DNA of 35,653 nucleotides from Ruminococcus sp. (GTDB lineage: Bacteria > Bacillota > Clostridia > Oscillospirales > Ruminococcaceae): assembly GCA_024403995.1 (NCBI GenBank), contig JAKSQT010000019.1:1-35653 (forward strand), given 5' to 3'. Position numbers and translations under genes: made by a program. Of the stretch, positions 6,259 to 32,241 are shown piece after piece. The notes under the pieces were generated by a model, which was not told the DNA's origin, searched no databases, and was given only the letters and a program-made list of their open reading frames with translations. Numbering within the stretch: the stretch's first letter is position 1; each line of letters starts with the position of its first letter.

Positions 6259-6420
6259 TATTGCTCCACCAACTAAATCTTGAATTTTTCTGCTTGTCCT
6301 GAAGAAGAAATTCTGCGTCAGAAAACCTTGAAATACGTTAGTATTCCTGCGGCTTTCTTCCTTGACTTTCTCCTTCATTACTTCGCATAAAATATTCAAG
6401 ACTTAATTGGCGGAGCAATA
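6259..6420. mobile_element. 158-bp MITE, copy 1, flanked by TA
   Basis: Element 6261-6418 starts TTGCTCCACCAACTAAA and ends TTAATTGGCGGAGCAA, which are inverted complements with a few mismatches extending about 28 bp. A TA dinucleotide on each side (6259-6260 and 6419-6420) looks like the target duplication of Tc1/mariner or IS630-type transposases. The copy at 32082-32239 is identical except at one base. No transposase is encoded. Read on the minus strand it has a chance frame that extends the 5719 gene. Its inner end is 28 bases from that gene's start codon. Confidence 0.9.
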
Positions 6421-6429
6421 TCAGTATAA

Positions 6430-6459
6430 TACGGCGGTGTCAGAAACAACACCGCCGTA
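6430..6459 (-). terminator. Hairpin terminator after the 218-residue secreted protein gene
   Basis: Perfect 11-bp GC-rich stem (6430-6440 with 6449-6459) and 8-base loop, about 35 bases 3' of the stop codon of the 6495-7151 gene. The following T content on the minus strand is modest. The MITE lies directly beyond it. Confidence 0.6.
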
Positions 6460-6494
6460 ATAATATTCAAGGGGTTATGCGTTTAAATGCTAAC

Positions 6495-7151
6495 TTATGT
6501 GGTTCCGTTGCTGATTGGAGCATTAGATGTACCATTACCATCAGGTGTAATTTTTACAGTAATTTTGCCAAGTGTGAAATCCTCAGTTGTAGTTACGTCG
6601 CCGGCTGTTACGGTAACATCTATTGTATTAGATGGAACGTCATCGTCTGCAGCGCCGATAGGGCAGGCATTTATAGATGTTTCATCATAATTATCTAATG
6701 TTGCAGTAAAGCCGTTAAGTTCTACTGTATTTGAAGTACCAAATGCTGCACTTGACTTGACAGCCCAGTTTGAGTGGTTTTTAACAGTGATCGAACCTGT
6801 ATTCTTATCATTTGCCCAACCTCCGTCGGATGTATAGGTATGATTGTCAGGATCCCAAGTACCGCCGTTATATGTAAATGTAAGATCAGTCCATGTTACA
6901 TCAACTTTATAAACTGCTCCGGCTTTATTATAAGCATCCGGGTATGAGTTGTTGTTGATCTTAATATATACATCACCAGTAGATGTTGCACCATTGGTTA
7001 TATCAAAGGTTGCTGGATCTTCATCGCTTCTGTACGTATCTGTTCCAGCTGCACGACCATCAGCAAAAGCCGAGGAAACAGGGATAGCAAACATAAGAGC
7101 GGCGGTTGTAATAGCGGTTAAAGTTTTAAATAAATTAGTTTTTTTCATCAT
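6495..7151 (-). CDS. Secreted beta-sandwich surface protein sharing a WDP module with the 1771-residue protein
   Basis: A 218-residue exported protein with signal peptide MMKKTNLFKTLTAITTAALM and cleavage near SSAFA. The mature part has a module with KVDVTWTDLTFTY, then TWDPDNHTY, then GSITVKNHS, which matches the C-terminal module of the protein at 8263-13578 (VNVTVDWSSLVF, TWDPEQHFY, GTITVTNGS). A second half with TVTAGDVTTTEDFTLGKITV closes the protein. There is no LPXTG, dockerin or membrane anchor. I chose ATG at 7151 because AAAGGA is 8 bases upstream; an ATG at 7160 would touch the ribosome site. It lies 57 bases after the 7209 gene and is probably co-transcribed. It may be the soluble partner of the anchored proteins; function unknown. 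Confidence 0.75.
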   Translation of the reverse strand: MMKKTNLFKTLTAITTAALMFAIPVSSAFADGRAAGTDTYRSDEDPATFDITNGATSTGDVYIKINNNSYPDAYNKAGAVYKVDVTWTDLTFTYNGGTWDPDNHTYTSDGGWANDKNTGSITVKNHSNWAVKSSAAFGTSNTVELNGFTATLDNYDETSINACPIGAADDDVPSNTIDVTVTAGDVTTTEDFTLGKITVKITPDGNGTSNAPISNGTT

Positions 7152-7208
7152 AACAGTCATCCTTTCGTTATAAATATCAAATCTTTCGGTTAATGAAAGA
7201 AATTCGGC

Positions 7209-8075
7209 TTAATTTGTGACAGTGATCTTAACATTTGTGAGTTCGGATTCAACAATGGCTTTTTCACCTGTTGACGGATTATAGTAGCTTACACGGTAAA
7301 GACCTGTGTAAATGCCCTCGGAAATAACGATATTATCAAGCTTCAGGTTCATTTTCTGCAAACGTGTACCGGAAGGCAGAAGACCTGATTTTGCAATGCT
7401 GAAAACATTTCCGTCTGATTGTATCAGCAGTTCAAGAGTTACTGCCTGATTTGATTCCGAAGGATTTTCAAACATCATTGTGATACTTCCGCTGGAAAGT
7501 GAAACATCTGCTGCAAGGGTATATGACATTGAAGCAGAGCCGACAACATCTGTATCATTGTTTGATTTTGAGCTTTTAGAGTCTACATTGCTTGCTACCT
7601 CCTCTAAATTTTCGTCTTTTTCCGGCAGTGGAAAATCAGGAGCGACAGAAATTATTTCGGTTTCTGATGTCACAGTCTGTCCGACCGGTTCACTACTATT
7701 GTTAATAAGACTTCTGATTCCGAGCCATACAGGAATAACAGCGGCTATAAGCAGAAGAAATATGATGAGGAATGGTATTCGGCTTTTAAATATCAGAATG
7801 TACTGATTTTCGCCGACAGCAGCATAGCCGACTTTACGGAAAAGAAGTTTGTTCACGTCATCCGGCTTAAAAACTTTAAGGCTGCATCCTGCGCTCATAA
7901 CAAGTATTCCTATTTCGTTGTTTCCGTCTGCTTTTGCTGCACCAAGGAGTTCATATTCGTTTGCTGACCTATACAATTTGTTGAATTTCTTAGTAGAATA
8001 TGAGAAAAATGTTTTGCTGTCAATGTTCAGCTTTTCATCATAATCATTTTTTAAAACGAATTGAAATTCTTTCAA
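7209..8075 (-). CDS. Single-pass membrane protein with cytoplasmic N-domain and extracellular beta domain
   Basis: A 288-residue protein. Residues 1-98 form a mixed alpha/beta intracellular domain, 100-121 are a membrane helix (IPFLIIFLLLIAAVIPVWLG), 122-178 a Ser/Asn/Asp-rich linker and 180-288 an exported domain with SITMMFENPSESNQ, LLIQSDGN, SGLLPSG and IYTGLYRVSYYNPSTGEKA. That outside pattern also occurs, shorter, in the 5719-6231 protein. The start is TTG at 8075: AAGGAAG lies about 7 bases upstream, and the nearby ATG is out of frame. It has its own near-consensus promoter (8127-8155) after the terminator of the giant gene. A role as membrane anchor or signal transducer for the secreted proteins is inference. 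Confidence 0.75.
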   Translation of the reverse strand: MKEFQFVLKNDYDEKLNIDSKTFFSYSTKKFNKLYRSANEYELLGAAKADGNNEIGILVMSAGCSLKVFKPDDVNKLLFRKVGYAAVGENQYILIFKSRIPFLIIFLLLIAAVIPVWLGIRSLINNSSEPVGQTVTSETEIISVAPDFPLPEKDENLEEVASNVDSKSSKSNNDTDVVGSASMSYTLAADVSLSSGSITMMFENPSESNQAVTLELLIQSDGNVFSIAKSGLLPSGTRLQKMNLKLDNIVISEGIYTGLYRVSYYNPSTGEKAIVESELTNVKITVTN

Positions 8076-8126
8076 AATTCATCTTCCTTACGCTGTTTTA
8101 TAAACAATAATATATTTTGTGATTTT

Positions 8127-8155
8127 ATTATATCATAACTTTTAGTATTTTGCAA
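8127..8155 (-). promoter_or_regulatory. Sigma-A promoter for the 7209-8075 gene
   Basis: Minus strand TTGCAA (8150-8155), 17-base spacer, TATAAT (8127-8132), about 52 bases upstream of the TTG start. Confidence 0.75.
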
Positions 8156-8206
8156 TACACAAATTACACAGTTTTTTTTAATTGTTTTTGTAGATTTGGA
8201 TAATTT

Positions 8207-8249
8207 AAAAGCAAGATAAATATACAAAGTGTATACTTATCTTGCTTTT
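8207..8249 (-). terminator. Strong terminator of the 1771-residue protein gene
   Basis: Arms 8207-8225 and 8231-8249 pair over 19 positions with one mismatch and a 5-base loop, 14 bases 3' of the giant gene's stop, with TTTT in the 3' arm on the minus strand. Confidence 0.8.
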
Positions 8250-8262
8250 TCTCAAATCGTAA

Positions 8263-11200
8263 TTATCCGCCTGCGGAAAGACTTACTACACACGTTCCGA
8301 CATTATATTCGCCGGGTTCAATAAATGAAATTCTGTTCTGTGGAGCAAAACGTATTTCGGCGCTTTCATCGGCAGGGACTACCACTGAACTGATAGTATT
8401 ATTATCTCTGTCAGTATATTTTGCCTGAATATTTTCATAGCTGAATTCAGGACTATATGACAGTGAAGCACGTATCGAAGTGCTGTTGGTAGAGCCGTTT
8501 GTAACGGTAATAGTGCCATATTCCATGTTGGTATCCTCAGTCAGATAGCTGTCAGCGTAATAGAAATGCTGTTCGGGATCCCATGTGACTTCCTGCGCCT
8601 CAAATACCAGTGACGACCAGTCAACAGTAACGTTAATTACAGTACCACGGCGGATAAAGCTTACATAAACCGTAGTATCGCCGTCCATAGTGCCCTCAAT
8701 GACACTTGGTGAAGCATAATGATTATCATATTTTGTTGCATTAACTGCTTCAGGTGTTCTTGCGTCGTGTTGATATTCTGTGCCGTATTTCACAGTGTAG
8801 CTATCTGTTACGCCTGAGATCTCACCGTCTTCGTCCTTGTACATAACTGTCAGCGTATAATTCTTACCGACGAAAATTACATTTACAGCTTTGTCAATAA
8901 AGCCCATAGTTACCGTATTATCGCACTGTGTTGTATAATGTTCACCGTTTGCAATATTTGTTCTTACATTTTCTGCAACGTTGTATAGCGGAAATTCAAC
9001 GCCGCTTGTCAAAGTAACGCCGCCTGGAGTTTCGGTATATGAAACAGCCTCAGCCGCTTCTGTGCCGTCCTCAAAGAAGTAATAAACCCTGAGTGTTACA
9101 GCATCAACTTCCCATTCTGCGGTCAGTGCTGCATTATCGGTCAGTGTGAATACAGTATCTTCCATGACAAATTCACCATTCAGCTTCCAGCCCTTAAAGG
9201 TAGAACCTTGCTTTATAGGTACAGGCAGAGCCTTGAATGTGTATTTGCCGTCTTCTTTTCCGCACCAGCCTATTTCCTTGCCGTAATATACAGTTCTATC
9301 CGAACTGTCAGCCGTTGAAAGTGAGCCGCCGTTTGCATTAAAAGCAAGCGTATAATCATTTGGAGAATAGGTGACTACCTGATATACACCGCCATTGGAA
9401 GGCATAGTGCCTGAAACAGCGTTAATGTCGGGAGTATAGCCTGTAATTGTCGGAGATACCGCATTATATGTGCTGCCTGCATCAATGGTTTCCTCATGGT
9501 TATCACACACGGTCTTGCCGTCCTCGTCTACATAAACAACAACGAGTTTGCCGACTATTTTCTCATATATAACGGTAATTTCAGTATTATCCTCAATAGT
9601 ACCGCTTACAACAGCAGTCTGCGGAATATGGTTTGCTACGGCAGGGGACGCTGCATTGTATTCGTCACCGTAGAGTAATGTCTGCTTATAGTCCTCTGCA
9701 AGGGTATTTCCGTCCGCATCCTGATAATGAATAGTCAGGTCATACTGATTAAAGCTGTATTTTCCGGTTACGAACCAGTTCTGTGCAGGCATTTCTGTAA
9801 TATGTTCTTCGCCTGTTTCGCCCCAGTTCCACTTGAAAGCCATGCCCGTGATCTCCTCAGCTTTAAAAGCATCATAGAATTCGCTGCGCCATGTAGAATT
9901 TGCATCAAATACCGTACCTGCGGGATAAGCAAATCTTTTTTCCATGAGCATCGAATTGTCGGCATCGGTATAATACCTGAATACAAGCTCATATGTTGGA
10001 ATCACAGCTTCTGCGGTAATTTTGATATTATTGTTGATTTTTTCCTTTGGAATGAATAATTCTCCTGTGTTTTTTGAATATCTGTAGCCGTTCAGAGGTG
10101 AAAGCACGGTATCTCCGCATTTCACGGTGATTGCTGACGGAAGTTCATAGCCTGATTCTGCTTTAAGAGTGGTGCTCAGGTCTTCATACATCGGAAGCTT
10201 TTCGTCTGCATCACAGGTGATATTCTTTAGTTCCGTTTCTACCTTGTAATTCACGGTAAGTTCGGCTTCCTGTGAATACTGAACTGCCGAAACAGGGGAG
10301 ATAACTGTCGCTTTTACGGCTGTTTCAGGAGTCAGCACCGCTGTGAGCGTGTACTTCTGTGAAGCCTTGGCAGTTCCGATATTCGGGTCATTACTGCCGC
10401 TTGGTGACGCAGTTAACTCATATTCAACAAAATCGTCAAGAATGCTTTCGGTATCAACAGAAAAATCCGATTCTATAAGGTCATCATGAACTGAGAAATC
10501 TTCACCATAGAATTTTTCAGCATCCTTTGCAGTAAATACAGGTTCAGCAACAGCAACATTGACATAATTAAGTGAATCGCTGTTTTTCAGCGGAATATTT
10601 TTTGCAGATGGTCTGCTGTCATAGGTGTATTTCAGATCAAGAGCATCATCCTTGAACAGCGGAACGTCATTGCCGCCGAGGAAACCGTCAACAGGATTTG
10701 CTGATATTGTTATTTCAAGGCTTGCATTCGCTGTAAAAGTATGCTTATCTGTATCTTCTGTTGTGTGGATTTCTGATGTGTCAAATTTTATGTTGCTTTG
10801 GCTTATAGTGCTGCCGTTGAAATATGGCGACCATTCGCCGCTGAGGTCAAAAGAGATGTTTTTGAGGATTGATTTTGCGGCTTCTTTTTTTTCGTCTTTG
10901 TCACTTATGTCAAAAGTTGGTGTTTCGGTAATTGGAGTAATGCGGACAGCACCGTTGCCGCTGTTGGGGTTAGTTGTACTGTCATGTGTCAATCCGCTTG
11001 CAGGCGCTTCTGAGAAGAAATTATTATTGATGTAATTTTTACCTGCCGTACCGCCTGTGCTGCTATTTTCTGTTGTAGCTGTGTTACTTTTGTTACCATT
11101 CCATTCGTTAGAATTATTGCTTGTGAGTGCATTGTTAACGTTTTCACCGCTTGCTACGTTGTCGTTCATAGCAGGTATCAATCCCCAACCTAACAAAGAA

Positions 11201-13578
11201 TAAGCATAACCTCCTGCACCGCCGCCGCCGCCGCCAGCACAAAGATACGTCGTTAAATTACTTGATATAATAGTTGCATTTCCGCCTTCTCCGTTTGTTC
11301 CGCTGCCATTCTTCTTACTACTTGGCTGTTCAGGAACTTGAGATATGTTAATATCAAATGTTATAGTATCGTCTATCAGTAAATATCCTGATTTATATCC
11401 TCCTGTACCGCCAGCTCCGCCAGAACTAGTATGGCTTCCTACATATGCATCTCCTCCGTCTCCGCCATTACAGCCCCAAGCTTCAACAAGATACCAACCT
11501 TTGGTCAAATCAATATTATTAGTAGAAGAAGTATATAATGAAGGAGTACCTAATGAATATATTGTTTCATATGTACCATACGGCACTTTCTTTGAAGAAG
11601 CACTGACCGTAATAACCGTCTGATAACTGCTGCCAGTATAATCAAGTGAACGTGAAGTTTTTATCTTAATATCAGAATTATCATCGTTCAGGTTTCCCGT
11701 AGGAGTATCCAGATTATCTGAATTGGGGACAAAAGTTGTGTCTTCCTCCTTGATATTTACAACAGCAGTGCCCGAATACGTTCTTTCATGCTGAACGGGA
11801 CCGACTTTTGCAGTTTTGTCCTCATTTGGCGTAACCGTATACGAAATATCAAATGTCTGAGTCGCCTGCGGTTTGTTGTATGGTGCTGTCAATGCAGGAT
11901 CCATGGTGACAGCAGATATAACATTTCCATATGCATCCGTCGAATCAGCTGTACAATTCATGCTGTAAAGCTCAGTTTCGGTAACAGGAGCATCCGCATC
12001 AGTATATTTGTCATGCCAGAATGAAAATGTGTCAAGAGTATACGCAAGCGGCACATTTACCTTATCCAGATCTTTGTCAGCATCAAATGCAGGCAGAGTA
12101 ACGCCTGTTGCAGACATACCGATTTGTCCGTCAAGAAGCGGAACATTGTTGCCGCCCGGAAATGTATCTTTTGCAGTAAAAGTCAGTGTGATATCTGCGT
12201 GATTATTCTCTCTGCCGTGTTTGTCAGGGGAGATATCCACGCCTGTTATGGTATTATCTGCTGCATTCCATGTGCCGTTTCCGTTAGTTTCAGCAGACAC
12301 GTTGAAATAATCCGAAACAGGTATACTGAAATTGACACTTTCGTATACTGACAAATTCGGCTGTTCACTGCTGAGATATGCAATATTACAGTATCCGCCC
12401 TGAGATGAATTTGATTTCTCAGAGAGACTATTATTATACATTACTTGTTCGGATTCCGACAATTTGGAGAGATCATTTGTCATATATTCAGCGCTTGCGA
12501 GGAATGACGAACCGCCGCCGCCTCCGCCTGTATTGTCGTTATTGAGCAGTGCTTTCATTGTGCCGCCTGAGCCGCCGCAGTAGCCTGCACCGCCTGCGCC
12601 GCCGTTAAGGTTGCCTGCGCCGCCCGAACCGCCGTCAACATCCGGGAGAGATATGCGGAACCAGTCGTTTCCTGATTCACTATTGCTTCTGACGTTGCCG
12701 ACAAATAAAATATAAGTCGAATCAGAAGTTACAGCCGCACCCGGTTTATATGTGCCGCCTTTTCCGACATAAGCCTGAGAAGTGCCGCTTGATTTTCCGT
12801 CAGAGCCTGCAAAATATGTGCCCGGAACGGCAGAATCACTGATAACTCCTGATGCAGAAGTGCCCATATGACCGCCGCTGCCGCCGTCAGGGAGGTTTGT
12901 ACGGAAAAACAGCGAATCAAGTTCAAATCCGCCGCCGCCTCCGCCGCCGCCTGCGATCATGATATATCTGCTCATACGGTCAGCTTCGCTTGGTCTGATT
13001 GAGCCGTCAAAAGTTCCCTTGGGGTAATAATAGACTGCGGAAAAACCGCCGCCGCCGCCGATATGCAAAGAACCGTCATCACCATGAGCGCCGCCGTTAC
13101 CATTTACACCGCCGCCCGTATCCTCACGAACTGTCGAAGTACCTTTTGTGCCGATGTTATACAGCAGAACGTCACCTTTTTCAAGTGTCACGATGCTCCA
13201 TACATAGCCGCCTGCGCCGCCCTTGCCTGAAACATATTCAAAGCTGTTTCCGTCACCGCCGTCGCCGCCCCATAACTGAACAAGATATTTTCCGTCATAT
13301 GGTGCAGTGTAATAATTATCCTCAGACTGCTGTGTACTTGCCGGCGAATAACCGTTTGAAAAATACGAAGCTGCATCAAGCGTCATAGTGTAGCTTCTGC
13401 CGCCGGCATAAGCGAGAGTACGTTTCTGATCGATCATAAAAGTATTCTGGGTGTCCTCGGCGAATGCTGTATTGTTGATCTCATGAACTGTGCCCATAGC
13501 TTCAGCAAAAAGACAGCAAGCTGTACATACTGCGGCTATTCTTTTGAAAATTGATATATTATTATGGTGTATTCTCAT
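8263..13578 (-). CDS. Giant secreted glycine-rich surface protein with MucBP/InlB-like repeats
   Basis: 1771 residues with a signal peptide (about 1-40, ending NTAFA). Two glycine-rich domains (about 88-400 and 690-880) have LVQLWGGDGGDG or LVEAWGCNGGDGG near the start and runs of 6-8 Gly. This pattern is like the bacterial glycine-rich family related to the ALK/LTK glycine-rich fold. Beta domains with FPGGNNVPLLDG or FLGGNDVPLFKD follow each one, so the Gly-rich plus beta unit is duplicated. Next come MucBP-like repeats (IHYQDADGNTLAEDY, VVYVDEDGKTV, VMYKDEDGEISGV), one InlB-like repeat (FNANGGSL to GWKLNG) and a C-terminal WDP module shared with the 6495-7151 protein. No sortase motif, dockerin or membrane helix is seen. 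AGGAGG lies 9 bases before the ATG. It is probably an adhesin or matrix protein. Confidence 0.85.
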   Translation of the reverse strand: MRIHHNNISIFKRIAAVCTACCLFAEAMGTVHEINNTAFAEDTQNTFMIDQKRTLAYAGGRSYTMTLDAASYFSNGYSPASTQQSEDNYYTAPYDGKYLVQLWGGDGGDGNSFEYVSGKGGAGGYVWSIVTLEKGDVLLYNIGTKGTSTVREDTGGGVNGNGGAHGDDGSLHIGGGGGFSAVYYYPKGTFDGSIRPSEADRMSRYIMIAGGGGGGGGFELDSLFFRTNLPDGGSGGHMGTSASGVISDSAVPGTYFAGSDGKSSGTSQAYVGKGGTYKPGAAVTSDSTYILFVGNVRSNSESGNDWFRISLPDVDGGSGGAGNLNGGAGGAGYCGGSGGTMKALLNNDNTGGGGGGSSFLASAEYMTNDLSKLSESEQVMYNNSLSEKSNSSQGGYCNIAYLSSEQPNLSVYESVNFSIPVSDYFNVSAETNGNGTWNAADNTITGVDISPDKHGRENNHADITLTFTAKDTFPGGNNVPLLDGQIGMSATGVTLPAFDADKDLDKVNVPLAYTLDTFSFWHDKYTDADAPVTETELYSMNCTADSTDAYGNVISAVTMDPALTAPYNKPQATQTFDISYTVTPNEDKTAKVGPVQHERTYSGTAVVNIKEEDTTFVPNSDNLDTPTGNLNDDNSDIKIKTSRSLDYTGSSYQTVITVSASSKKVPYGTYETIYSLGTPSLYTSSTNNIDLTKGWYLVEAWGCNGGDGGDAYVGSHTSSGGAGGTGGYKSGYLLIDDTITFDINISQVPEQPSSKKNGSGTNGEGGNATIISSNLTTYLCAGGGGGGAGGYAYSLLGWGLIPAMNDNVASGENVNNALTSNNSNEWNGNKSNTATTENSSTGGTAGKNYINNNFFSEAPASGLTHDSTTNPNSGNGAVRITPITETPTFDISDKDEKKEAAKSILKNISFDLSGEWSPYFNGSTISQSNIKFDTSEIHTTEDTDKHTFTANASLEITISANPVDGFLGGNDVPLFKDDALDLKYTYDSRPSAKNIPLKNSDSLNYVNVAVAEPVFTAKDAEKFYGEDFSVHDDLIESDFSVDTESILDDFVEYELTASPSGSNDPNIGTAKASQKYTLTAVLTPETAVKATVISPVSAVQYSQEAELTVNYKVETELKNITCDADEKLPMYEDLSTTLKAESGYELPSAITVKCGDTVLSPLNGYRYSKNTGELFIPKEKINNNIKITAEAVIPTYELVFRYYTDADNSMLMEKRFAYPAGTVFDANSTWRSEFYDAFKAEEITGMAFKWNWGETGEEHITEMPAQNWFVTGKYSFNQYDLTIHYQDADGNTLAEDYKQTLLYGDEYNAASPAVANHIPQTAVVSGTIEDNTEITVIYEKIVGKLVVVYVDEDGKTVCDNHEETIDAGSTYNAVSPTITGYTPDINAVSGTMPSNGGVYQVVTYSPNDYTLAFNANGGSLSTADSSDRTVYYGKEIGWCGKEDGKYTFKALPVPIKQGSTFKGWKLNGEFVMEDTVFTLTDNAALTAEWEVDAVTLRVYYFFEDGTEAAEAVSYTETPGGVTLTSGVEFPLYNVAENVRTNIANGEHYTTQCDNTVTMGFIDKAVNVIFVGKNYTLTVMYKDEDGEISGVTDSYTVKYGTEYQHDARTPEAVNATKYDNHYASPSVIEGTMDGDTTVYVSFIRRGTVINVTVDWSSLVFEAQEVTWDPEQHFYYADSYLTEDTNMEYGTITVTNGSTNSTSIRASLSYSPEFSYENIQAKYTDRDNNTISSVVVPADESAEIRFAPQNRISFIEPGEYNVGTCVVSLSAGG

Positions 13579-14095: not shown

Positions 14096-17000
14096 TTATT
14101 TTACAGTTACATTAGATGCAACATCACCATATACAGTAAACTCCTTGCCGGAAGAATCCTTGTATACGAGATAAGGTCTTACATACCATGATTTTTCATA
14201 CATTGCATTTTTGATGCTGAGTGTATATCTGAAGTTGTGAGCAGTGATATTTGTGTTGTAGAGTGTCTTGTATTCAGAATTGTCGATTGTAAGATTTTTT
14301 GAATCATCGTAATTTGATGTAGCCACAACGCCTGACTTTAAGATCGTGCAGTCTGCCGGAACACTTGTCATTGTGACAAACTTGAATACCTTGTTTACGC
14401 TGTCATCTTCAATTGATTCCATAACAGCTGTACCAACGATCTTATCTTCGTGGATAGTTTCATATCCTTCAAGATCTGCCTTTGTAAGGTCGCTGTAAAC
14501 GGTCTTTACGTTGCCGTTTGCATCCTCATATTCAAGATATCCCTTGACATACCATGTCTTCAGTGCCTGGTCGTTCTGAATTGTAAGAGTATATCTGTAG
14601 TTGTGGGCTGTGATGTTTGTCTTGTACAATGTTGTGTAGTCTGAATTATCAATTGTCAGATCCTTTGCCTTGGCTTCGTCTGCTGTTGCAACAACACCGG
14701 CTTTCAGTATCTTGCAGTCTTCCGGAACGTTCAGCAGTGAAACGAATTTCATCTTCTGGTTTTCCTTGTCGATGTCTACGCTTTCTATTGCTGCATTTCC
14801 GTATCTTTCGATATCATCTGTATCCTCTACATATACTGCTTCAAGTTCAACATCATCTGTCGGAACATAGAAAGTATACTTATTATTATATGAGATAGTC
14901 TGTCCGTTTCTCCTCCAGTAACCGAACTTATAGCCTGCCTCCGGCGCATCGGCTGTTACTGCGGCTATTTCGCCTGCCTTGAAGGATGCAGAAGTTGACT
15001 TATCAGCAAATGTTCCGTTCTTGACTGTTACATTGAAGCTTGCATTATCAACAACTACTATAGCCTCTGCGAAACCTGTATAATTGCCGATACCTTCTAC
15101 CTGAACCGAGAAATTACCGTCTCTCTTGGTCTTGGTTGCAGAAACGAATAAGAAATCAGTACCGTTATATTCTCCGGTAGCCTCATCGTAAACAGGACGT
15201 TCAAGTTCAACTTCCTCACCGTTTACAATGCCGATAACCTTGATGCAGTCTCCCGGGTATGACCAGCCGTCATCCTTAAATCTGCAGTCACTTATTACTA
15301 TGATATTTTCATCAGTAAGTTCCTGCGGCAAAACTGTAAATGTACCATCGATAGACAGATAATAGTTGCTGTCATCAATTTCAATCGTACCAAGGGTAAA
15401 GTCATATTCACCAACGTTTGCTTCATAGTCAGCAAGACCATATTCACCTGTAATTTCCGGTGTTTCGCCTTCGATGAATTCATCTTCATCATAGCTGTAA
15501 TCTGCCCAGTCAGGATCAGCAGCACCGAATATCTTGTTTTCAGGTGCATTAGGAGTAATAGCGATCTCCTTCTGTGTGATCTCATAATCCACGTATACAG
15601 TATTGAACGAATAAACCTTTGCGGCTGCGCTTACTGCAAGGCGATACTGACCTGCATCCTTCGGAGCGCCGTCAAGTTTGGTCATATGACCTTCTTCATC
15701 AACCGAGTAGTATGTATAAGTGTATTTCAGATCCTTGATGCCATCGAAAGGAGTCTTTGATGTATCGGCTGTTTTATAGATGAATACTTCAGGTTCATCA
15801 GCCTTGCCGTCATAAACTTTGCTTTCAGGAAGTGAAGCATAGATAGAATATGTCAGAATCGGCTTGATCTGCCAGTCATATGTTACTAAGCCCTTGTAAT
15901 TGCCCTGTCCGAAGAATTCAACTGTGTATGTTCCGGGGAGAACAGCGTGGTCTGTGCCGCCCTGAATGAAATCATTGGAAGTAAGCTTAGGTGTATGCGG
16001 TGTGTCAAGGAAAGTTCCGTCATCAAGAGTAAAGTCAGGAGCCTTTTTCTTGGTAGCGTCATATGTATAGTCTTCATCATCTACTATGAACATATCCGCA
16101 CTCAGTTCCTTTGGCTCAATTGTAAATACAGCGTCACCGTCAAGAACTGCCGTATAGTTGTCAAATTCCTCAGTGGTGATACCATATTTATATGTACCTG
16201 CATCATTCACGAAGTGATTATAATCAAAGTCTCTGAGAGCAAGGGCAGGAGAGAAGTCGATTTTCTCGATATCTGAAGGAATAACGCCTGTCTTGGTATC
16301 CCATTCGTTGTTTTCATCTTCATCAGCAGCAGTTTCAAGATCAAAGGTGAGAATCGGCTTTTCTAATGTGCCGTAAACGATCTTCTGATCTTCCTTAGGT
16401 GTGATCTTGAGTTCACGCTTCTTGATTTCAAATTCAACAGGGAGTTCCAGCTCATTATAGTTTTTGAATTTGAGAATGATGGTTGCATTATGCTTACCTG
16501 CATTGGTAAGTTCATTGATAAGTTTTTTGGATGAATTACTTGAAATAGTTACTTCTGTTTCAGGATAAGTTTCTGTATCATTTACAAGTGCAGCGTCATT
16601 TCCTGTAAAGATGAAGTCTGTTATATCGATCTCGCTTCCGTCGTAAACGATATTTTCAACAGGAGCAACTTTGATATCTGCATTGCCCTTTTCGATGCTC
16701 CAGTTTACAGTAAGTGAACCTGTATAGAATTTGCAGTCATCTTTTGTTGTGAATTCAGCAGAATAAGTTCCTACATCTGTCTTGGCTTCAAGAGTATCTG
16801 TATATTCATCAGCAGTCAGAACTGTCTCTGTTCCGTAAACATTGTTCTTGATAACGATTACAGGCTTCTGTTCGTTAGCGTTATATGTGAATGTTTTTTC
16901 CGGAATCGTAACTGCGCCGTCCTTGACTTCCAGTGGAATCAGTTCTTCGCCATTCTTCAGGTATATATCACACATAGTGAGCGGACGCTTTTCATAGCTT

Positions 17001-19762
17001 ATCGGCTGTTCAATATAGAATACCTGTGCATCAATATTAGGATCTTCAAGTACAGCAGAATTATCAACTGTAACGTCTGCGGCGAGGAAATAATTTTTTC
17101 CGACCTCAGGCGTGTCAACAATTGCGCCTTCTTCTTCTGCAAAGTATACGTCTGTTACGGAGATAATGCCTGCCTTTTTGTCTTCGTCCATTTCCAAGCC
17201 GTCAGTGATAGTGATAGCATCATCAGGAACGACATCGCCGTAGTAGTATGTATCATTGCCCTTGATATATGCGCCGAGAATGCTGAAATCGTTGTCTTCA
17301 CCGATATACAGTTTGCCTTTTTCGCTTGCCTTTACCACACCTCTCCAGTTATTGTTATGTGACAGGATATAGCTTTCAGATGGTTCAAACGGAACGTTAA
17401 TTGTATAGCGGTACTTATATGTCTTGTTATTGTATGTCTTATTTGATTGTAAAGAAATACCAAGCTCTTCTGTTGTCACGCTGTCGGCGATGCTCTTATC
17501 TGTATAGATATAGTAAGACTTCTTGTTGGTGAGAGTGTACTTGCCGTCATTCGGAGTCAATATGTTTCCATTGTTATCAGTAACTGCATATTCGCCGAGA
17601 TTGATGAGGGCAAGCACCGAATTATATACGCTTTCAAGGTAAATCTTGCCATCTGATGTCTTTACATAGGTTGCCTTCTGCGGTACGATAAAGATATTTG
17701 CGGCATCTTTGTCTGAATCGTCGAAATTAACCGTAAAATCGTCGCCGTTCTTGAAAAGTGCAGTATCAGCTTCAATGACATCTCCTGCCTTGAGATTGTT
17801 GATATCTACAGGTGTCTGGAGATAAACCTTGCCGTTTTCGATTTTCCTGAATACTAAATTATTTGCAGTATATGCTGTGCTTGCATCAATAGTTCCGACT
17901 TCATTTCCGTCAAGTACTATCTTTAATTCAGCTTCAGGAGAAATAATACTGAGGTTGATAAGGCTGTCCGGGGTTAATGTATTTACATCAGCAGCAGCAT
18001 CCTTGAATGTTACAGATTTTGCGTCAAAGAGACCGATTAATGTATTGTCTACGAGTAAATCTGCACTTGATTTGTAATAATTAACCCAAGTGTCAGCACT
18101 GCCATAAGGAACAACGATGGTAATGTCGTTCCCTCCAAATGGAACACGATCAAAATAAATCTTGCTTGGGTCTGAGATACCTAAACGAATTTCTGATAAA
18201 TAATCTGAATAAAATGGACTATGATGAATATATTCCAATTTACTACAAGCAGATAAATCAAAAGTTGATATTTTTGTTCCCGCAAAAGCATAATCACTAA
18301 TACCTCTCAAAGTTGTACATTCAGAGAAATCTGCTTCTGTTATATTGGACATACCTTCAAAAGCAAACAAAAATATTTCTGTTATTCCGTCCTTGAATAC
18401 AACTTTCGTTACATTTTCTATACCTGGGATATTCCTAACAAATCTTTCATCAACCATGTCAACAGTGCCTGAAATAGTAAGCACATTGCCATTGATTTCA
18501 TACTCGGGTTCGGTAAATGTTACAGAATTTGCACCAAAGAGACCGCTGAATGTATTGCCTTCGGGTGTATTTCCTTTTTCTGTGTAATATTTAACCCAAT
18601 CGTCAGCACTGCCAACCGGGACAGAGATAGTAACATTATCAACATCAGCAAGGAGTGTGCTTAATGCATCATCAGCAATTGTAATCTTACTTGGGTCTGA
18701 GATACCAAGAGAAATTTTAGATACTTTAGAGTTGGAAATAAAACTAGAACCTATATATTTCAGTTTTTTACAAGCAGAAAGATCAATACTGGTGAGTTTT
18801 TTCTGGGAACAAATAGAATGCTTTTCAAGTCTTTCTAAATTTGTACAATTAGAAAAATCAAATTCTTCGACGCCCATTATACCATAAAGTGAATCATAAT
18901 TAATAATTTCTACGCTATTTGTATATACAACTTTTTTAATACTATTTTTTGTTGCATCATCAAAAGGAAGACCTTTGCAGAATTCATAACCAATACTATT
19001 ACCTGATAAAGTAAGTGTACCGTCGTCAGTTAATTCCCATTTGACACCTTCATATGTGCCTGTTAATGGGTCACTTTTAAATGTTACAGATTTTGTACCA
19101 AAGAGATTGCTGAATTTATTGCCATCGGGTTCCTTTCCTTGATTTTTGTAATAATTGACCCAAGTGTTAGCACTGCCAATTGGAACAACGATTTTAACAT
19201 CATTTATACCGATATTTTCAGGGTTAAATGCTGATTCATTAATAACAATGTCCTCCGGATTTGAGATGCCTAAACGAACTTCAGAAAGATTACTTGAAGC
19301 TAATGAACCATAATTTAAAGTTTTCAGGCTTGTACAAGCGGAAAAATCAAAAGTTGATATGTTTGTTCCATCAAAAGCACCATCATCAATAGATTCCAAA
19401 GTTGTACATTCAGAAAAATCTGCTTCTGTTAAATAGGATAACATATCAAAAGAAAAACCACCTATTGCTTTTATGCCGTCCTTGAATACAACTTTCGTTA
19501 CTTTTCCACTAAACTTTCTATCCAAGTAATCACTACAAAAATTCCTGGGAATTTCTGCCGTTTCCTCTGTTGGTGATAAAGTAAGTGTACCATCGTCAGT
19601 AAATACCCAATTGATATCATCAATTACGCCTGATTGGGTTTCCGCACTTGCCGTGATACAGATAGATCCGTCCTTATTAATTTTCCCCGGCAGATATCCT
19701 GCAACCATTACGAGTGCGAATGTACCTGCAAGTACTCTTTTGATGTAGTTTTGTTTAGCCAT
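14096..19762 (-). CDS. BspA-type leucine-rich-repeat surface protein with Ig-like/MBG domains
   Basis: 1888 residues. A signal peptide (about 1-41) is followed by three homologous LRR blocks (about 46-230, 236-416, 421-588), each with LRR_5-type units (EADFSECTTLESI, SACTSLKTL), SEVRLGIS and a closing VPIGSANTWVNYY plus KSVTF segment. Then come beta domains, a run of MBG/YDG-like Ig domains (about 1000-1560, for example IVYDGSEIDITDF, KVYDGKADEPEVF), an InlB-like repeat (about 1575-1650, GYKFGYWRRNG) and two tandem copies of an unnamed domain of about 115 residues (1652-1774 and 1775-1888; both with LTIDNS, TLYxTNITAHN and SWYV or TWYV). No cell-wall anchor is visible. AGGAGG precedes the ATG by 11 bases. 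It is likely an adhesin; the peptide gene follows in the same direction. Confidence 0.85.
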   Translation of the reverse strand: MAKQNYIKRVLAGTFALVMVAGYLPGKINKDGSICITASAETQSGVIDDINWVFTDDGTLTLSPTEETAEIPRNFCSDYLDRKFSGKVTKVVFKDGIKAIGGFSFDMLSYLTEADFSECTTLESIDDGAFDGTNISTFDFSACTSLKTLNYGSLASSNLSEVRLGISNPEDIVINESAFNPENIGINDVKIVVPIGSANTWVNYYKNQGKEPDGNKFSNLFGTKSVTFKSDPLTGTYEGVKWELTDDGTLTLSGNSIGYEFCKGLPFDDATKNSIKKVVYTNSVEIINYDSLYGIMGVEEFDFSNCTNLERLEKHSICSQKKLTSIDLSACKKLKYIGSSFISNSKVSKISLGISDPSKITIADDALSTLLADVDNVTISVPVGSADDWVKYYTEKGNTPEGNTFSGLFGANSVTFTEPEYEINGNVLTISGTVDMVDERFVRNIPGIENVTKVVFKDGITEIFLFAFEGMSNITEADFSECTTLRGISDYAFAGTKISTFDLSACSKLEYIHHSPFYSDYLSEIRLGISDPSKIYFDRVPFGGNDITIVVPYGSADTWVNYYKSSADLLVDNTLIGLFDAKSVTFKDAAADVNTLTPDSLINLSIISPEAELKIVLDGNEVGTIDASTAYTANNLVFRKIENGKVYLQTPVDINNLKAGDVIEADTALFKNGDDFTVNFDDSDKDAANIFIVPQKATYVKTSDGKIYLESVYNSVLALINLGEYAVTDNNGNILTPNDGKYTLTNKKSYYIYTDKSIADSVTTEELGISLQSNKTYNNKTYKYRYTINVPFEPSESYILSHNNNWRGVVKASEKGKLYIGEDNDFSILGAYIKGNDTYYYGDVVPDDAITITDGLEMDEDKKAGIISVTDVYFAEEEGAIVDTPEVGKNYFLAADVTVDNSAVLEDPNIDAQVFYIEQPISYEKRPLTMCDIYLKNGEELIPLEVKDGAVTIPEKTFTYNANEQKPVIVIKNNVYGTETVLTADEYTDTLEAKTDVGTYSAEFTTKDDCKFYTGSLTVNWSIEKGNADIKVAPVENIVYDGSEIDITDFIFTGNDAALVNDTETYPETEVTISSNSSKKLINELTNAGKHNATIILKFKNYNELELPVEFEIKKRELKITPKEDQKIVYGTLEKPILTFDLETAADEDENNEWDTKTGVIPSDIEKIDFSPALALRDFDYNHFVNDAGTYKYGITTEEFDNYTAVLDGDAVFTIEPKELSADMFIVDDEDYTYDATKKKAPDFTLDDGTFLDTPHTPKLTSNDFIQGGTDHAVLPGTYTVEFFGQGNYKGLVTYDWQIKPILTYSIYASLPESKVYDGKADEPEVFIYKTADTSKTPFDGIKDLKYTYTYYSVDEEGHMTKLDGAPKDAGQYRLAVSAAAKVYSFNTVYVDYEITQKEIAITPNAPENKIFGAADPDWADYSYDEDEFIEGETPEITGEYGLADYEANVGEYDFTLGTIEIDDSNYYLSIDGTFTVLPQELTDENIIVISDCRFKDDGWSYPGDCIKVIGIVNGEEVELERPVYDEATGEYNGTDFLFVSATKTKRDGNFSVQVEGIGNYTGFAEAIVVVDNASFNVTVKNGTFADKSTSASFKAGEIAAVTADAPEAGYKFGYWRRNGQTISYNNKYTFYVPTDDVELEAVYVEDTDDIERYGNAAIESVDIDKENQKMKFVSLLNVPEDCKILKAGVVATADEAKAKDLTIDNSDYTTLYKTNITAHNYRYTLTIQNDQALKTWYVKGYLEYEDANGNVKTVYSDLTKADLEGYETIHEDKIVGTAVMESIEDDSVNKVFKFVTMTSVPADCTILKSGVVATSNYDDSKNLTIDNSEYKTLYNTNITAHNFRYTLSIKNAMYEKSWYVRPYLVYKDSSGKEFTVYGDVASNVTVK

Positions 19763-23480: not shown

Positions 23481-26006
23481 ATGCTTAAAAAATTAACAAG
23501 CGGTCTGCTTTCTGTTGCAATGCTTGCCGCTTCAACTGCATTTTCTGTTCCGGCAGTTACTTCCGTGGCTGCTTCTGACCAGAATTATGCTGATGCACTT
23601 GACAAGTCACTTTTCTTCTATGAGGCTCAACAGGCAGGCCCGCTTCCTGACTGGAACAGAGTTGAATGGAAGACGGATTCTACTATGACCGACGAAGTTC
23701 TCGGAGGCTGGTATGATGCCGGTGACCACGTAAAGTTCAATCTGCCGATGGCTTATTCGGCTTCAATGCTCGCATGGGGACTCTATCAGTACCCTGACGG
23801 ACTTGAAAAGTCCGACCTTATGGGCACATATGTCAATAACCTTGAATTCGTTCTCGATTACCTTGCAGAATGCGATAAAGGCTCACAGGTCGTTTATCAG
23901 GTCGGCAACGGTACTGTTGACCATACTTGGTGGGGTCCTATCGGCCTTATCGAATACGGCATGGCTGACAACGGTTCATCTGTTGCCGAGGCTCGTGCAA
24001 CTCTGAAATCTTCCGAGGGATGCTCCGCTGTATTCGGCGAAATGGCTGCTGCTCTTGCCGCAGGTTCTGTTGCCCTTAACGGCAGGATCGACTCCTCAAA
24101 GACCGCTGCATATCTCAAACACGCTGAAAATATCTTCAAGCTTGCCGATGCTTCAAAGAGCGATAAAGTTTATAATAACAGCGACGCTTCAGGCTTCTAT
24201 CGTTCAAGCCACTTCTATGACGAGCTTTTCTATGCCGCTAACTGGCTGTATATCGCTACAAAGGACGAAAGCTATCTTGACCTTGCAACAAGTTATATCC
24301 CTCACCTCGGTACTATGCTCGGTGAAGGCGATACACTTGCTTACGGCTGGTCACATTGCTGGGACGACAATATGCAGGGCGCTATGCTCCTTTATGCTAT
24401 CAATACAAATGACAGCAAATACGTAGCTCACGTTAAGAAGCACCTTGACCGCTGGGTAAACGGCGACGAGGCTAAGATACTTCCGGGCGGTCTGCGCTGG
24501 CTCTCAACATGGGGCTGCCTCAGATATGCTAATACTTCTGCATTTATTGCATCAGTTGCAAGCGATACCATTTTCAAGAATGAGGATACTTCAAAGTATG
24601 TCGAATTTGCCGAAGCACAGGTAAATTATGCTCTCGGTGACAACCCTGACAAGAGAAGCTATGTTGTCGGCTACGGCAATAATCCTCCTGAAAATCCTCA
24701 CCACAGAACTGCTCACGGCTCATGGAAAAATGACCTTGCAGTTCCTGATAAAAACCGCCATATCCTTTACGGCGCTCTCGTAGGCGGCCCTGATGAATCA
24801 GGAAAATACGTTGATGACCGTCAGAACTATATCAACAATGAGGTAGCTACAGACTATAACGCTGGCTACACTGCTATGCTCTGCAAGATGCTTGATAAAT
24901 ACGGCGGAACAAAGGATCCGTCATTCCCTGAACCTGAGGTTCATGACGGCCCTGAATTCTATGTTGAATGTCAGTCAAAGGGCGCAGAGTCAAGCGGTAT
25001 GACAGTCAGCTTCAAGATCACAAACCACTCCGCATGGCCGGCAAGAGTACAGGATAATATCTCGTTCCGCTACTATATGGATCTCAGCGAAGTAAAAGCC
25101 GCAGGCGCTAACCCTGAGGACGTTGTTATCCGCTGCGACCGTGACCAGTCCAAGATGTATGCAGGCGTTACACCTGCCGAAATTTCAGGCATCAAGCACT
25201 ATGACGGAGATATCTACTACGTTGAGGTAAATCTCCCTGACGGACGTGCAGTTCTTCCTATTTCTGAAGGTATGCAGCAGTGTGAGATTCTCCTTGCACT
25301 TGTTATGCCTAACTATGGAAGCGGCTGGGATGCAACAAATGACTTCTCCAACAAGGATATCCTCGGCGGCAAGACTACAACTTCCGCTGACGGTACTGTT
25401 CACGGCATTGTAACTCCTTATGTTCCTGTTTATGTTGACGGCAAGCTCTATTACGGCGAAGAACCTGACGGCACTAAGGCTGACGGTCTCGGCGGAACAG
25501 GCGACAGACCTGTAAAAACTACTGCTGTAACCACAAAGCGTGTTACTACAACTACCACAACAGTTACAACAGAGTCTGAAACCACCACAACAACTACAAG
25601 CACAACTACAACAACAGAAACCACCACAACCCGTGCTACAACACCTGTAACAAGACCGGTTTCTGAAACAACAATGCCGATAGATGTTGATCCTGTCACT
25701 ACAACAACTAAGATCAACAGCGGCGAGTATCCGATCGGTGATCCGCAGTCTTCGGTAGATTCACAGACACTGTGCGGCGATGCAAATAATGACGGTCAGA
25801 TCAATCTTGCTGATACAGTTATGATAATGCAGGCACTCGTAAATTCACCAAAATACGGTCTCAACGGCTCGGATGCCAGCCATATCACTGCTCAGGGCTG
25901 GGCTAATGCAGACTGTGCAGGCAATAAAGACGGTGTTACCAACCTCGATGCACTTGCAATTCAGAAATATAAACTTGGTTTAATCAAATCACTTCCTGAA
26001 ACATAA
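23481..26006 (+). CDS. GH9 endoglucanase with CBM3 and type I dockerin
   Basis: 841 residues, secreted. Signal peptide (about 1-31); GH9 catalytic domain (about 35-472) with GGWYDAGDHVKF (nucleophile-assisting Asp79/Asp82), HHRTAHGSW (about 407-415) and the general acid Glu454 in INNEVATDYNAG; then a family 3 carbohydrate-binding module (about 490-670), in the position of CBM3c of processive theme B GH9 enzymes; a Thr-rich linker (about 675-750); and a dockerin (about 765-841) with DANNDGQINLAD and a second loop DCAGNKDGVTNLDAL. All catalytic residues I can check are present. It cleaves beta-1,4-glucan of cellulose and is probably carried on a scaffoldin. It has its own promoter and terminator, so it is monocistronic. 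Confidence 0.95.
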   Translation: MLKKLTSGLLSVAMLAASTAFSVPAVTSVAASDQNYADALDKSLFFYEAQQAGPLPDWNRVEWKTDSTMTDEVLGGWYDAGDHVKFNLPMAYSASMLAWGLYQYPDGLEKSDLMGTYVNNLEFVLDYLAECDKGSQVVYQVGNGTVDHTWWGPIGLIEYGMADNGSSVAEARATLKSSEGCSAVFGEMAAALAAGSVALNGRIDSSKTAAYLKHAENIFKLADASKSDKVYNNSDASGFYRSSHFYDELFYAANWLYIATKDESYLDLATSYIPHLGTMLGEGDTLAYGWSHCWDDNMQGAMLLYAINTNDSKYVAHVKKHLDRWVNGDEAKILPGGLRWLSTWGCLRYANTSAFIASVASDTIFKNEDTSKYVEFAEAQVNYALGDNPDKRSYVVGYGNNPPENPHHRTAHGSWKNDLAVPDKNRHILYGALVGGPDESGKYVDDRQNYINNEVATDYNAGYTAMLCKMLDKYGGTKDPSFPEPEVHDGPEFYVECQSKGAESSGMTVSFKITNHSAWPARVQDNISFRYYMDLSEVKAAGANPEDVVIRCDRDQSKMYAGVTPAEISGIKHYDGDIYYVEVNLPDGRAVLPISEGMQQCEILLALVMPNYGSGWDATNDFSNKDILGGKTTTSADGTVHGIVTPYVPVYVDGKLYYGEEPDGTKADGLGGTGDRPVKTTAVTTKRVTTTTTTVTTESETTTTTTSTTTTTETTTTRATTPVTRPVSETTMPIDVDPVTTTTKINSGEYPIGDPQSSVDSQTLCGDANNDGQINLADTVMIMQALVNSPKYGLNGSDASHITAQGWANADCAGNKDGVTNLDALAIQKYKLGLIKSLPET

Positions 26007-26112: not shown

Positions 26113-26144
26113 ACTAATATACCTTTTTTTATTCGGAGGACATT

Positions 26145-27263: not shown

Positions 27264-27270
27264 CCAAAAA

Positions 27271-27368
27271 CCTGACTGCTTTAAAAAAAATCAAAAAAAA
27301 TTTGAAAAAATTTCAAAAAAGGGGTTGACAAACCCGAAAATATCTGATATAATATTAAAGCAGTCAGG
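27271..27368. repeat. 14-bp perfect inverted repeat enclosing the tRNA-Leu promoter
   Basis: CCTGACTGCTTTAA (27271-27284) and its exact complement (27355-27368) flank a 70-base A-rich stretch that contains the -35 and -10 boxes. The left arm is next to the stop of the cyclase gene and runs into an A-tract. Confidence 0.55.
27325..27353 (+). promoter_or_regulatory. Consensus promoter of tRNA-Leu
   Basis: TTGACA (27325-27330), 17-base spacer, TATAAT (27348-27353), both exact consensus; the tRNA begins 48 bases downstream. Confidence 0.85.
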
Positions 27369-27401
27369 TGAGGCAATAAAAAAACTTCACTGATAGTCAA
27401 T

Positions 27402-27486
27402 GCGAGTGTGCTGGAATAGGCAGACAGGCACGTTTGAGGGGCGTGTGTCGAAGGACGTATGGGTTCAAGTCCCATTACTCGCACCA
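27402..27486 (+). tRNA. tRNA-Leu (anticodon GAG)
   Basis: Acceptor stem GCGAGTG pairs with TACTCGC; the anticodon arm CACGT-TTGAGGG-GCGTG gives anticodon GAG (codons CUU/CUC). A long variable arm (TGTCGAAGGACGTA) marks a class II tRNA, followed by a T-arm with GGTTCAAGTCC and an encoded CCA end. 85 bases in all. A consensus promoter and a terminator bracket it. Confidence 0.95.
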
Positions 27487-27488
27487 TT

Positions 27489-27521
27489 AAACCATTTGCT
27501 TTAAGCAGATGGTTTTTTTGT
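27489..27521 (+). terminator. Terminator after tRNA-Leu
   Basis: AAACCATTTGC (27489-27499), 5-base loop, GCAGATGGTTT, then a run of T; one G-T pair in an 11-bp stem. Confidence 0.85.
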
Positions 27522-27556
27522 TTTATCAGAATGTTTTGACAGAATGGAGTGATCTT

Positions 27557-29377: not shown

Positions 29378-29382
29378 AAATC

Positions 29383-29422
29383 AGCACCATACAAAGTCGT
29401 CAGACGTGCTTTGTGTGGTGCT
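29383..29422. terminator. Bidirectional hairpin between convergent genes, family H1
   Basis: AGCACCATACAAAG (29383-29396) pairs with CTTTGTGTGGTGCT (29409-29422) with one G-U position and loop TCGTCAGACGTG. It lies 5 bases after glgB and 5 bases from the stop of the opposing lipoprotein gene. Confidence 0.75.
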
Positions 29423-29427
29423 GCTAT

Positions 29428-30402: not shown

Positions 30403-30420
30403 GATAAATTCTCCTTTTCG
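30385..30420. repeat. 36-bp direct repeat, copy 1
   Basis: Matches 31585-31620 at 34 of 36 positions, exactly 1200 bases apart. It covers the ribosome site and first codons of the lipoprotein gene. The two copies bracket the nucleotidyltransferase gene. Confidence 0.85.
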
Positions 30421-30432
30421 GCACAGTTTGCC

Positions 30433-31527: not shown

Positions 31528-31570
31528 ATTTTGTTCCTTTCTGAAAAAGGTGATCGTCTGTCTCGCCAAT

Positions 31571-31584
31571 GCCGTGCTGCCTTA
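31571..31584. repeat. Solo arm of hairpin family H1
   Basis: GCCGTGCTGCCTTA matches the 3' arm of the 5660 and 20181 hairpins (GCGGTGCTGCCTT, GCGATGCTGCCTTAA) without its partner arm next to it. Confidence 0.5.
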
Positions 31585-31602
31585 TATTTTGTTGCGTGTC
31601 AT
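31582..31602 (-). pseudogene. Six-codon remnant of a second lipoprotein-gene start
   Basis: ATG at 31602 reads MTRNKI then TAA, the same first six residues as the lipoprotein at 29428-30402 with the same leader, after which the sequence runs into an H1 hairpin arm. The ATG overlaps the TGA of the 31599-31832 gene. Confidence 0.6.
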
Positions 31603-31620
31603 GATAAATTCTCATTTTCG
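31585..31620. repeat. 36-bp direct repeat, copy 2
   Basis: Same as 30385-30420 with two mismatches. It covers the last codons and stop of the 77-residue membrane protein and the remnant start. Confidence 0.85.
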
Positions 31621-31832
31621 TCAGTAATAGTTTCAGGAGTATCTGAAATAATGCCTTTCTTTTTCAGTACAGAAACATGTATTATATATGCTGTAAGTAT
31701 AAATAACGGGCAAAGAAGCAAAAGAACATCTTTTACTGAATGAAAAAATAAAACATTGTCGGTGTTTCCGGCAACAATGTTATTCATTATAGCAGAAAAA
31801 ATAACAAACAATAAAAGAAAATATTTTTTCAT
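31599..31832 (-). CDS. Small two-helix membrane protein (hypothetical)
   Basis: 77 residues: MKKY then a hydrophobic segment LLLFVIFSAIMNNIV, a short loop, a second segment LLLLCPLFILTAYIIHVSVL, and an acidic tail. No family recognised. A TTG at 31838 could add two residues; neither start has a clear ribosome site. The last codons come from the duplicated 36-bp segment, so the natural C-terminus may have been replaced. It is first in the operon with the nucleotidyltransferase and lipoprotein, downstream of a TTGAAA/TATAAT promoter. Confidence 0.55.
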   Translation of the reverse strand: MKKYFLLLFVIFSAIMNNIVAGNTDNVLFFHSVKDVLLLLCPLFILTAYIIHVSVLKKKGIISDTPETITDENENLS

Positions 31833-31859
31833 TTTCAAACTTCATCACGCCCTTCTTTT

Positions 31860-31887
31860 GACAACACCGCATAAAGCACGTCTGACG
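31860..31887. repeat. Solo half of hairpin family H1
   Basis: GACAACACCGCATAAAGCACG followed by TCTGACG matches the 3' arm and loop of the 29383 hairpin on the opposite strand with only a few differences. The complementary arm is missing. Confidence 0.55.
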
Positions 31888-31943
31888 AAAAATCCAATCG
31901 TGTCTCCGGCGTATACTCTTTGTGAGGTATTGACTTTATAATA

Positions 31944-31972
31944 ATTATAACAATATCTGACATGAATTTCAA
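31944..31972 (-). promoter_or_regulatory. Promoter of the small membrane protein operon
   Basis: Minus strand TTGAAA (31967-31972), 17-base spacer, TATAAT (31944-31949). The gene-free stretch 31833-32365 also holds the H1 half, the second MITE and the repressor gene promoter. Confidence 0.65.
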
Positions 31973-32079
31973 GATGATTTCAATTAAAATAAGATGAAAA
32001 AAAGTATGTTATTTTGTTACATTTTGATGATAAGCAAAGCTGCGTGTTATTGAGAAAAATGCTGTTGCTGCGGCGCTAT

Positions 32080-32241
32080 TATTGCTCCACCAACTAAATC
32101 TTGAATTTTTCTGCTTGTCCTGAAGAAGAAATTCTGCGTCAGAAAACCTTGAAATACGTAAGTATTCCTGCGGCTTTCTTCCTTGACTTTCTCCTTCATT
32201 ACTTCGCATAAAATATTCAAGACTTAATTGGCGGAGCAATA
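32080..32241. mobile_element. 158-bp MITE, copy 2, flanked by TA
   Basis: 32082-32239 is identical to 6261-6418 except for one base in the middle (ACGTAAG for ACGTTAG), in the same orientation on the plus strand, with TA on each side. Its right end is 10 bases from the -35 box of the repressor gene. Confidence 0.92.

Follow-up and report, generated by a model that had tools for sequence, protein, structure and literature searches.

A repeat with IS630-type ends in a Ruminococcus genome carries a strand-specific hairpin core that is also present in other miniature element families

Miniature inverted-repeat transposable elements (MITEs) are usually viewed as two ends separated by arbitrary filler. 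Among the closest described systems, and as far as the accessible portions of the respective accounts go, RUP of Streptococcus pneumoniae is a repeat of 107 bp mobilised by IS630-Spn1 (PMC2229807), bcr repeats are part of mRNA in 50.9% and 40.0% of cases in two B. cereus strains (PMC3446304), and REPs are sequences of 20–40 bp linked to tyrosine transposases (PMC3116915; PMC3733652; PMC2817692). Accounts that are likewise accessible in part attribute orientation-dependent effects on mRNA stability to ERIC and propose NEMIS transcripts as targets of RNase III. The subject here is a 158-bp repeat that occurs twice in 35,653 nucleotides of DNA from Ruminococcus sp. (assembly GCA_024403995.1, contig JAKSQT010000019.1; the whole stretch is termed the window). 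The repeat is read as a MITE of the IS630 type whose interior is a hairpin module common to several MITE types; the core of this module would be maintained by selection, at a best guess on the RNA level, and a probability of roughly 0.7 is given to this reading. What is new beyond the preliminary description of this DNA is the conserved, strand-specific hairpin core inside the element, which is common to other MITE families.

The two copies, which together with their further copies in the genome are termed family 1, are located as follows (loci carry L numbers and genomes G numbers).

6261..6418, minus strand: MITE copy 1, 158 bp; minus is the strand with the more stable hairpin
6259..6260, no strand: left TA of copy 1, target-site copy
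6419..6420, no strand: right TA of copy 1, target-site copy
6294..6383, minus strand: core of the copy 1 hairpin (97.6 bits, E 2.5e-22 with covariance model R1, whose 22 training sequences include this copy as L004)
6339 (copy 1), no strand: sole base differing between the copies, within the predicted 4-base loop at the hairpin tip
32082..32239, minus strand: MITE copy 2, 158 bp; folding strand minus
32080..32081, no strand: left TA of copy 2, target-site copy
32240..32241, no strand: right TA of copy 2, target-site copy
32115..32204, minus strand: hairpin core of copy 2 (R1, 97.3 bits, E 3.0e-22)

The preliminary description had reported the same length, a one-base difference, inverted ends and TA on both sides, all of which the sequence confirms. 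The single difference between the copies is at element position 79, T at 6339 against A at 32160, and the ends read TTGCTCC...GGAGCAA in both. The terminal inverted repeats are imperfect, with matches at 25 of the 29 first positions.

When folded as RNA, the minus strand of the element reaches -79.8 kcal/mol (z -13.65) and the plus strand -51 kcal/mol (z -9.08); the minus strand folds more stably because mismatches between the arms are read as G·U there. In elements of congeners the arms are widely different and the core is common. The core can be read as a pair of like internal loops (C-AA-G opposite C-GCA-G) in inverted order, together with a UNNC-type terminal loop. In an alignment of 22 sequences (A1), 89.0% of the cells pair and in 23 of the 29 pairs both partners change; four of five measures, including the percentage paired and the covariation score, were reached by none of 500 shuffles, and pairing in a slid-structure control was 35.0–51.8%. 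A second alignment (A2; 97 model matches, 95 distinct), which was fitted to the model and so leans toward it, gives 90.9% pairing with all 29 pairs changing on both sides. Its majority consensus in the RNA sense is CAAGGAAAAAnnnCGCAGGAATACTGnCGTATTTCAAGGnnTTTTnACGCAG, and the unpaired bases of the inner loop are conserved at 90, 93 and 87% (GCA) and 82 and 92% (AA).

The two kinds of mismatch that distinguish the strands were scored alike in 169 distinct hairpins with an arm score of at least 45, grouped into 61 clusters at 80% identity. The outer arms hold 211 G·U against 87 A·C; 47 of the 61 clusters favour G·U and 9 favour A·C (sign test, 2.6e-7). An offset-pairing control for composition gave G·U/A·C ratios of 1.03–1.37.

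The core is carried by elements of other kinds as well. A second family in the same genome is 172 bp long with ends GGCAACACCGC, is present at no fewer than 40 places (40 of 192 candidates were scored) and contains the core (L192, 60.7 bits). Flanks matching over 4 bp, TTAA in 14 cases, accompany 24 of 29 end pairs of family 2, and it was therefore probably not moved by the enzyme that moved family 1. With up to 29 candidates scored per genome, the core model matched 75 of 149 genomes of the genus and order, source included (56 in the genus and 19 outside it); when 17 of the 19 were searched again, 16 had matches at E 0.001. Ruminococcus flavefaciens FD-1 is among the matches listed in the core pattern scan. 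In a sample of the phylum, model R2 matched 10 of 398 genomes, source included, six of them outside the class.

In two Paenibacillus-like genomes (G510 and G551), the core lies between GGGCGTGTCTGAAAACTCC-type ends, with TA on both sides in four of the six elements shown; the genus may be Paenibacillus, a guess from one match, at 79.8%, to a replicon of Paenibacillus cellulosilyticus. In four genomes of other families (G037, G038, G132 and G146), the core occurs as a divergently oriented pair within repeats of ~250–300 bp; the second member of the pair frequently matches weakly (E 1e-8 to 0.007). By eye, these repeats (L356, L376, L350 and L361) are near-palindromic and have flanks like two halves of terminator hairpins; no TA duplication was seen in these four. 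In the G037 and G038 drafts, many copies coincide with the ends of contigs and may thus cause assemblies to break. The presence of the core in unrelated elements of other bacteria suggests a common function.

Further repeats were noticed beside these. The genome of origin has a third repeat (L019, ~366–468, and relatives) with ends like CCTCTAAAAACCC, which by eye holds CAAG...TTGACGCAG; the MITE copy L025 sits in a relative of it. Another palindromic repeat, of the AAACCCTTTTCAAAAGGGTTCCCC type (L020 1330–1421, L026 and L028), holds MITE insertions. Within the window, gacaacaccgcataaagcacgtctgacg at 31857–31890 resembles, by eye, an end of the second MITE family (GGCAACACCGCACAAAGCACGTCTGACG) in decayed form. 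The core motif also occurs in one stretch among viral contigs, near the very end of a contig of the viral collection (L409 49–72), and a plasmid search found no relatives of the window element.

Several lines of evidence point to movement of family 1. The source genome is a draft of 2.58 Mb in 179 contigs, 86% complete. The further copies suggested for search in the preliminary description are present: a 162-bp query located the family at 40 or more distinct genomic places, a lower bound, scoring having covered 40 of the 92 candidates of the first look. Thirty-four of the 40 are full length at 98–100% identity; the other six have diverged, are interrupted or run into a contig end. The end pattern gave 51 forward and 49 reverse matches in the genome versus 0 for a reversed-pattern control. 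Of 36 copies compared without gaps, 11 are identical to the consensus and two are outliers (11 and 30 differences), namely L121, interrupted by a family-2 element, and L122, which has an indel. This near identity would point to recent spread. TA is present on both sides in 34 of 35 own-genome copies, the interrupted L121 being the exception, and the matching flank is exactly these 2 bases in 33 of 34 copies.

The copies L026, L023 and L025 lie in repeats whose unoccupied paralogues in the same genome keep a single TA at the empty site, and one more paralogue (L028) has a base change there. Another comparison concerns the copy that follows a sigma-factor-like gene: in all 29 relatives' loci examined, the 400 bases beyond the homologue of this gene lack the element; the label of the gene is read from its translation, and the intergenic DNA of the relatives does not align there. 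Family-2 elements are inserted into family-1 copies with 4-base duplications (L181 and L185), and at L024 (1005–1310) a family-2 MITE is nested in an arm of a MITE of the first type with a TTAA duplication.

The IS630-type element with the same ends, proposed earlier as a check, was found in congeners (G032/L088 and G089/L159). At E 1e-5, 17 of 120 genomes of the genus had a DDE_3 match, and a search with the L159 transposase gave matches in 17 of 125 at E 0.001, two full length and the others pieces or distant. The full-length enzymes are those of G089 (L159, 347 aa) and G032 (L088, 76% identical). The L159 transposase matches NF033545 of the IS630 family (E 4.3e-74) and DDE_3 (E 7.5e-42), and L159 1373–2502 is a complete insertion sequence consisting of TA, left end TATTGATATACCAA..., gene, right end and TA, the right end reading TATTGCTCCCCCAATTAAACCTTGCC on the opposite strand. 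With TA included, the L088 right end agrees with either end of the window MITE at 25 of 28 bases; the L159 right end agrees with the MITE of G027 at 26 of 28, and L159 with the two ends of the window MITE at 22 and 21 of 28. The two insertion sequences thus correspond to two MITE subtypes, L088 to the window MITE and L159 to that of G027, and by eye the right-end type of sequence is present at both MITE ends. Copies, TA flanks and matching insertion-sequence ends together support the original assignment to a MITE with a TA target and IS630-type ends, which would be mobilised in trans.

Other candidates for autonomous elements were set aside. Paired ends 1.07 kb apart at G175:C117 enclose a 318-aa open reading frame (ORF) in which no transposase was recognised, a family scan not being part of that inspection. 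For family 2, nine inverted end pairs lie 0.6–2.6 kb apart in the loci covered, and no transposase was seen among the ORFs of the two inspected (L267 and L307). The end pattern of the Paenibacillus-like elements (up to one mismatch) occurs at 28 places in G510 and 13 in G551, with no inverted pair of transposon length.

In the mechanism proposed, an IS630 transposase would recognise the ~28-bp ends and insert the element at TA in intergenic DNA, acting in trans. MITEs whose ends are unrelated and whose target duplication is of another kind share this core; selection on the folded strand would accordingly maintain it, operating at the level of the element, and the core would have been passed between, or be common to, different MITE types. 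As a guess, the core might act as RNA in element transcripts, where it could bind a protein or be processed, and might thereby aid persistence or spread of the element rather than regulate the adjoining gene.

A bolder view is put forward tentatively: that the core is an undescribed mobile structured RNA module with a function of its own, which hitch-hikes, switches vehicles and is sporadic through the phylum, in MITEs of several unrelated transposases as well as in divergent pairs in terminator-like hairpins. Its vehicles might then be, with the same reserve, the IS630-type elements with TA, the second type with 4-bp TTAA-like duplications, and others in Paenibacillus-like genomes.

A number of results weigh against an IS630-type MITE with a selected, RNA-level core. 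The fifth measure for A1, further pair types, was reached by 7 of 500 shuffles, and the outer internal-loop bases are only ~50–78% conserved, more weakly than the inner loop. With the core included in the strand test, the excess is smaller (339 G·U against 191 A·C; clusters 44 against 11). When 156 hairpins with an arm score of at least 60, covering more loci than the cluster test, were grouped by their outer arms, 15 independent families remained, 12 against 3 in favour of G·U (p 0.035). The excess favours folding of a single strand, with clear support from the clusters and modest support from the families. As to mobility, the TA flanks fit equally a duplication and an insertion between T and A without duplication, which cannot be separated. 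Three joined insertion junctions gave no match across any of them in 125 genus genomes, so that no clean orthologous empty site was found; the empty TA sites anticipated in the preliminary description are thus present as paralogues in the same genome and did not align as orthologues in relatives at these junctions. No IS630-type transposase was found in the window, as stated earlier, or in the 86% complete assembly, by searches with DDE_3 and the L159 transposase, and a full-length cognate enzyme is present in only 2 of 125 genus genomes. The enzyme would have been in the lineage recently or be missing from the draft assembly.

The arrangement of neighbouring genes bears on cis regulation. Relative to the folding strand, genes upstream are in the same orientation in 15 and the opposite in 16 cases in family 1 (downstream 19 and 13; 33 copies), and in 11 and 18 cases in family 2 (downstream 16 and 13; 29 copies). 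Genes were called as longest ORFs, copies with less than 600 bases of flank were dropped, and 10 of 40 family-2 places had no locus sequence. Orientation bias is thus absent in 33 family-1 and 29 family-2 copies, which gives no support for regulation of the adjacent gene, and a cis-regulatory element was rejected on this inconsistency. One of 33 family-1 copies and none of 29 family-2 copies lie within an ORF of at least 150 aa.

One rival, considered unlikely, is that of an ordinary MITE whose interior is a leftover palindrome: the paired changes would come from template switching or gene conversion between the DNA arms, and the core from common descent. Palindromes can be corrected arm to arm, IS630-type transposition does not need interior sequence, the cores are related in sequence, and the 15 arm families are few with a modest G·U excess, all of which suit it. 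Arm correction should, however, erase G·U and A·C equally, whereas the outer arms differ by 211 to 87; unpaired inner-loop bases are conserved at 82–93% while most stem pairs vary, and the core stays while the ends change.

It is improbable, too, that the hairpin works as single-stranded DNA in a REP/REPIN- or IS200-like manner, the strand being extruded and recognised by a nuclease or transposase. REP/REPIN sequences have conserved mismatches, and a strand-specific hairpin with conserved mismatched bases would fit, as would the divergent core pairs in 280–300-bp repeats, which recall REPIN architecture. Yet the ends within the genus are of the IS630 type with TA on both sides, and G·T in DNA is less tolerated than G·U in RNA. 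Most genes in Bacillota are on the leading strand, so that the absent orientation bias relative to genes also argues weakly against a replication-strand preference.

Searches of Rfam 15 at the gathering score (window and 12 loci) gave no match to the core, and a known Rfam RNA family was rejected on that basis; two looser searches of 14 loci each gave nothing above threshold except four tRNA matches, which lie elsewhere in L040 and L044. Comparisons with SRP RNA, kink-turns, attC sites, single-strand origins and bridge RNA were set aside. A non-mobile origin, either as a conserved RNA gene of the host, named already in the preliminary description, or as a cis-regulatory leader, would explain the structure and its conservation across genera. 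It is largely refuted by these searches and by the copies themselves, which are dispersed and almost identical, have TA flanks, nest with other repeats, are missing from the 29 loci behind the sigma-factor-like homologue and are indifferent to gene orientation.

Beside the two window copies lie the following features.

5719..6231, minus strand: gene downstream of copy 1, without a Pfam match; ATG at 6231, ~28 bases from the element (start picked by eye; the ORF listing gives a longer ORF from 6399)
32252..32280, plus strand: promoter-like site 10 bases past copy 2 (TTGAAT, 17 bases, TATAAT)
32366..32767, plus strand: gene downstream of copy 2, iron-dependent repressor family (PF02742, E 1.4e-13; PF01325, E 1.1e-8)

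The promoter-like site has 10 of 12 consensus bases, but is a consensus match only, because two such sites were found versus 1.2 expected by chance in shuffles. The earlier statement that the elements lie beside gene 5' ends holds for these two copies (~28 bases to a start codon and 10 to the -35-like hexamer at 32252) and does not extend to a general rule, given the lack of bias in the 33 and 29 copies.

Elsewhere, the window encodes a GDSL esterase with a dockerin (1519–4278), a 1771-aa protein with a glycine-rich and a MucBP domain (8263–13578), a 1888-aa protein with BspA-type leucine-rich repeats (14096–19762) and a family 9 glycoside hydrolase with CBM3 (23481–26006). The glycoside hydrolase and the dockerin esterase fit a cellulolytic gut bacterium.

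Against the usual view of MITE interiors, the same folded, strand-specific core is kept here by MITEs of several related genomes despite different ends. This makes it possible to test whether the interior of a MITE serves its spread or the host, and the covariance model can be used for annotating such repeats in gut genomes.

A literature search made mostly without subscription papers found no account of the Ruminococcus repeat or of a core shared by MITEs. The element resembles IS630-family insertion sequences in its matching ends and TA, with a transposase in congeners, but in the insertion sequence L159 there is, by eye, no room for the core between the ends and the gene. Like RUP, it is a short intergenic repeat with a TA target and IS630-like ends; unlike it, RUP is described, in the available part of its account, as having no other signature of structure or function, and that part mentions no hairpin core shared by MITEs (PMC2229807). 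ERIC, NEMIS-Correia and bcr1 are similar as short intergenic repeats with stem-loop transcripts, whereas the accessible portions of their accounts report no core common to MITEs of different transposases, a distinction drawn from descriptions. With REP/REPIN the element shares the character of a short palindromic repeat, some of which are described, in the parts of those accounts at hand, as inverted pairs (PMC3116915; PMC3733652; PMC2817692); in contrast to these, the repeat of the window is 158 bp long, has IS630 ends and is flanked by TA.

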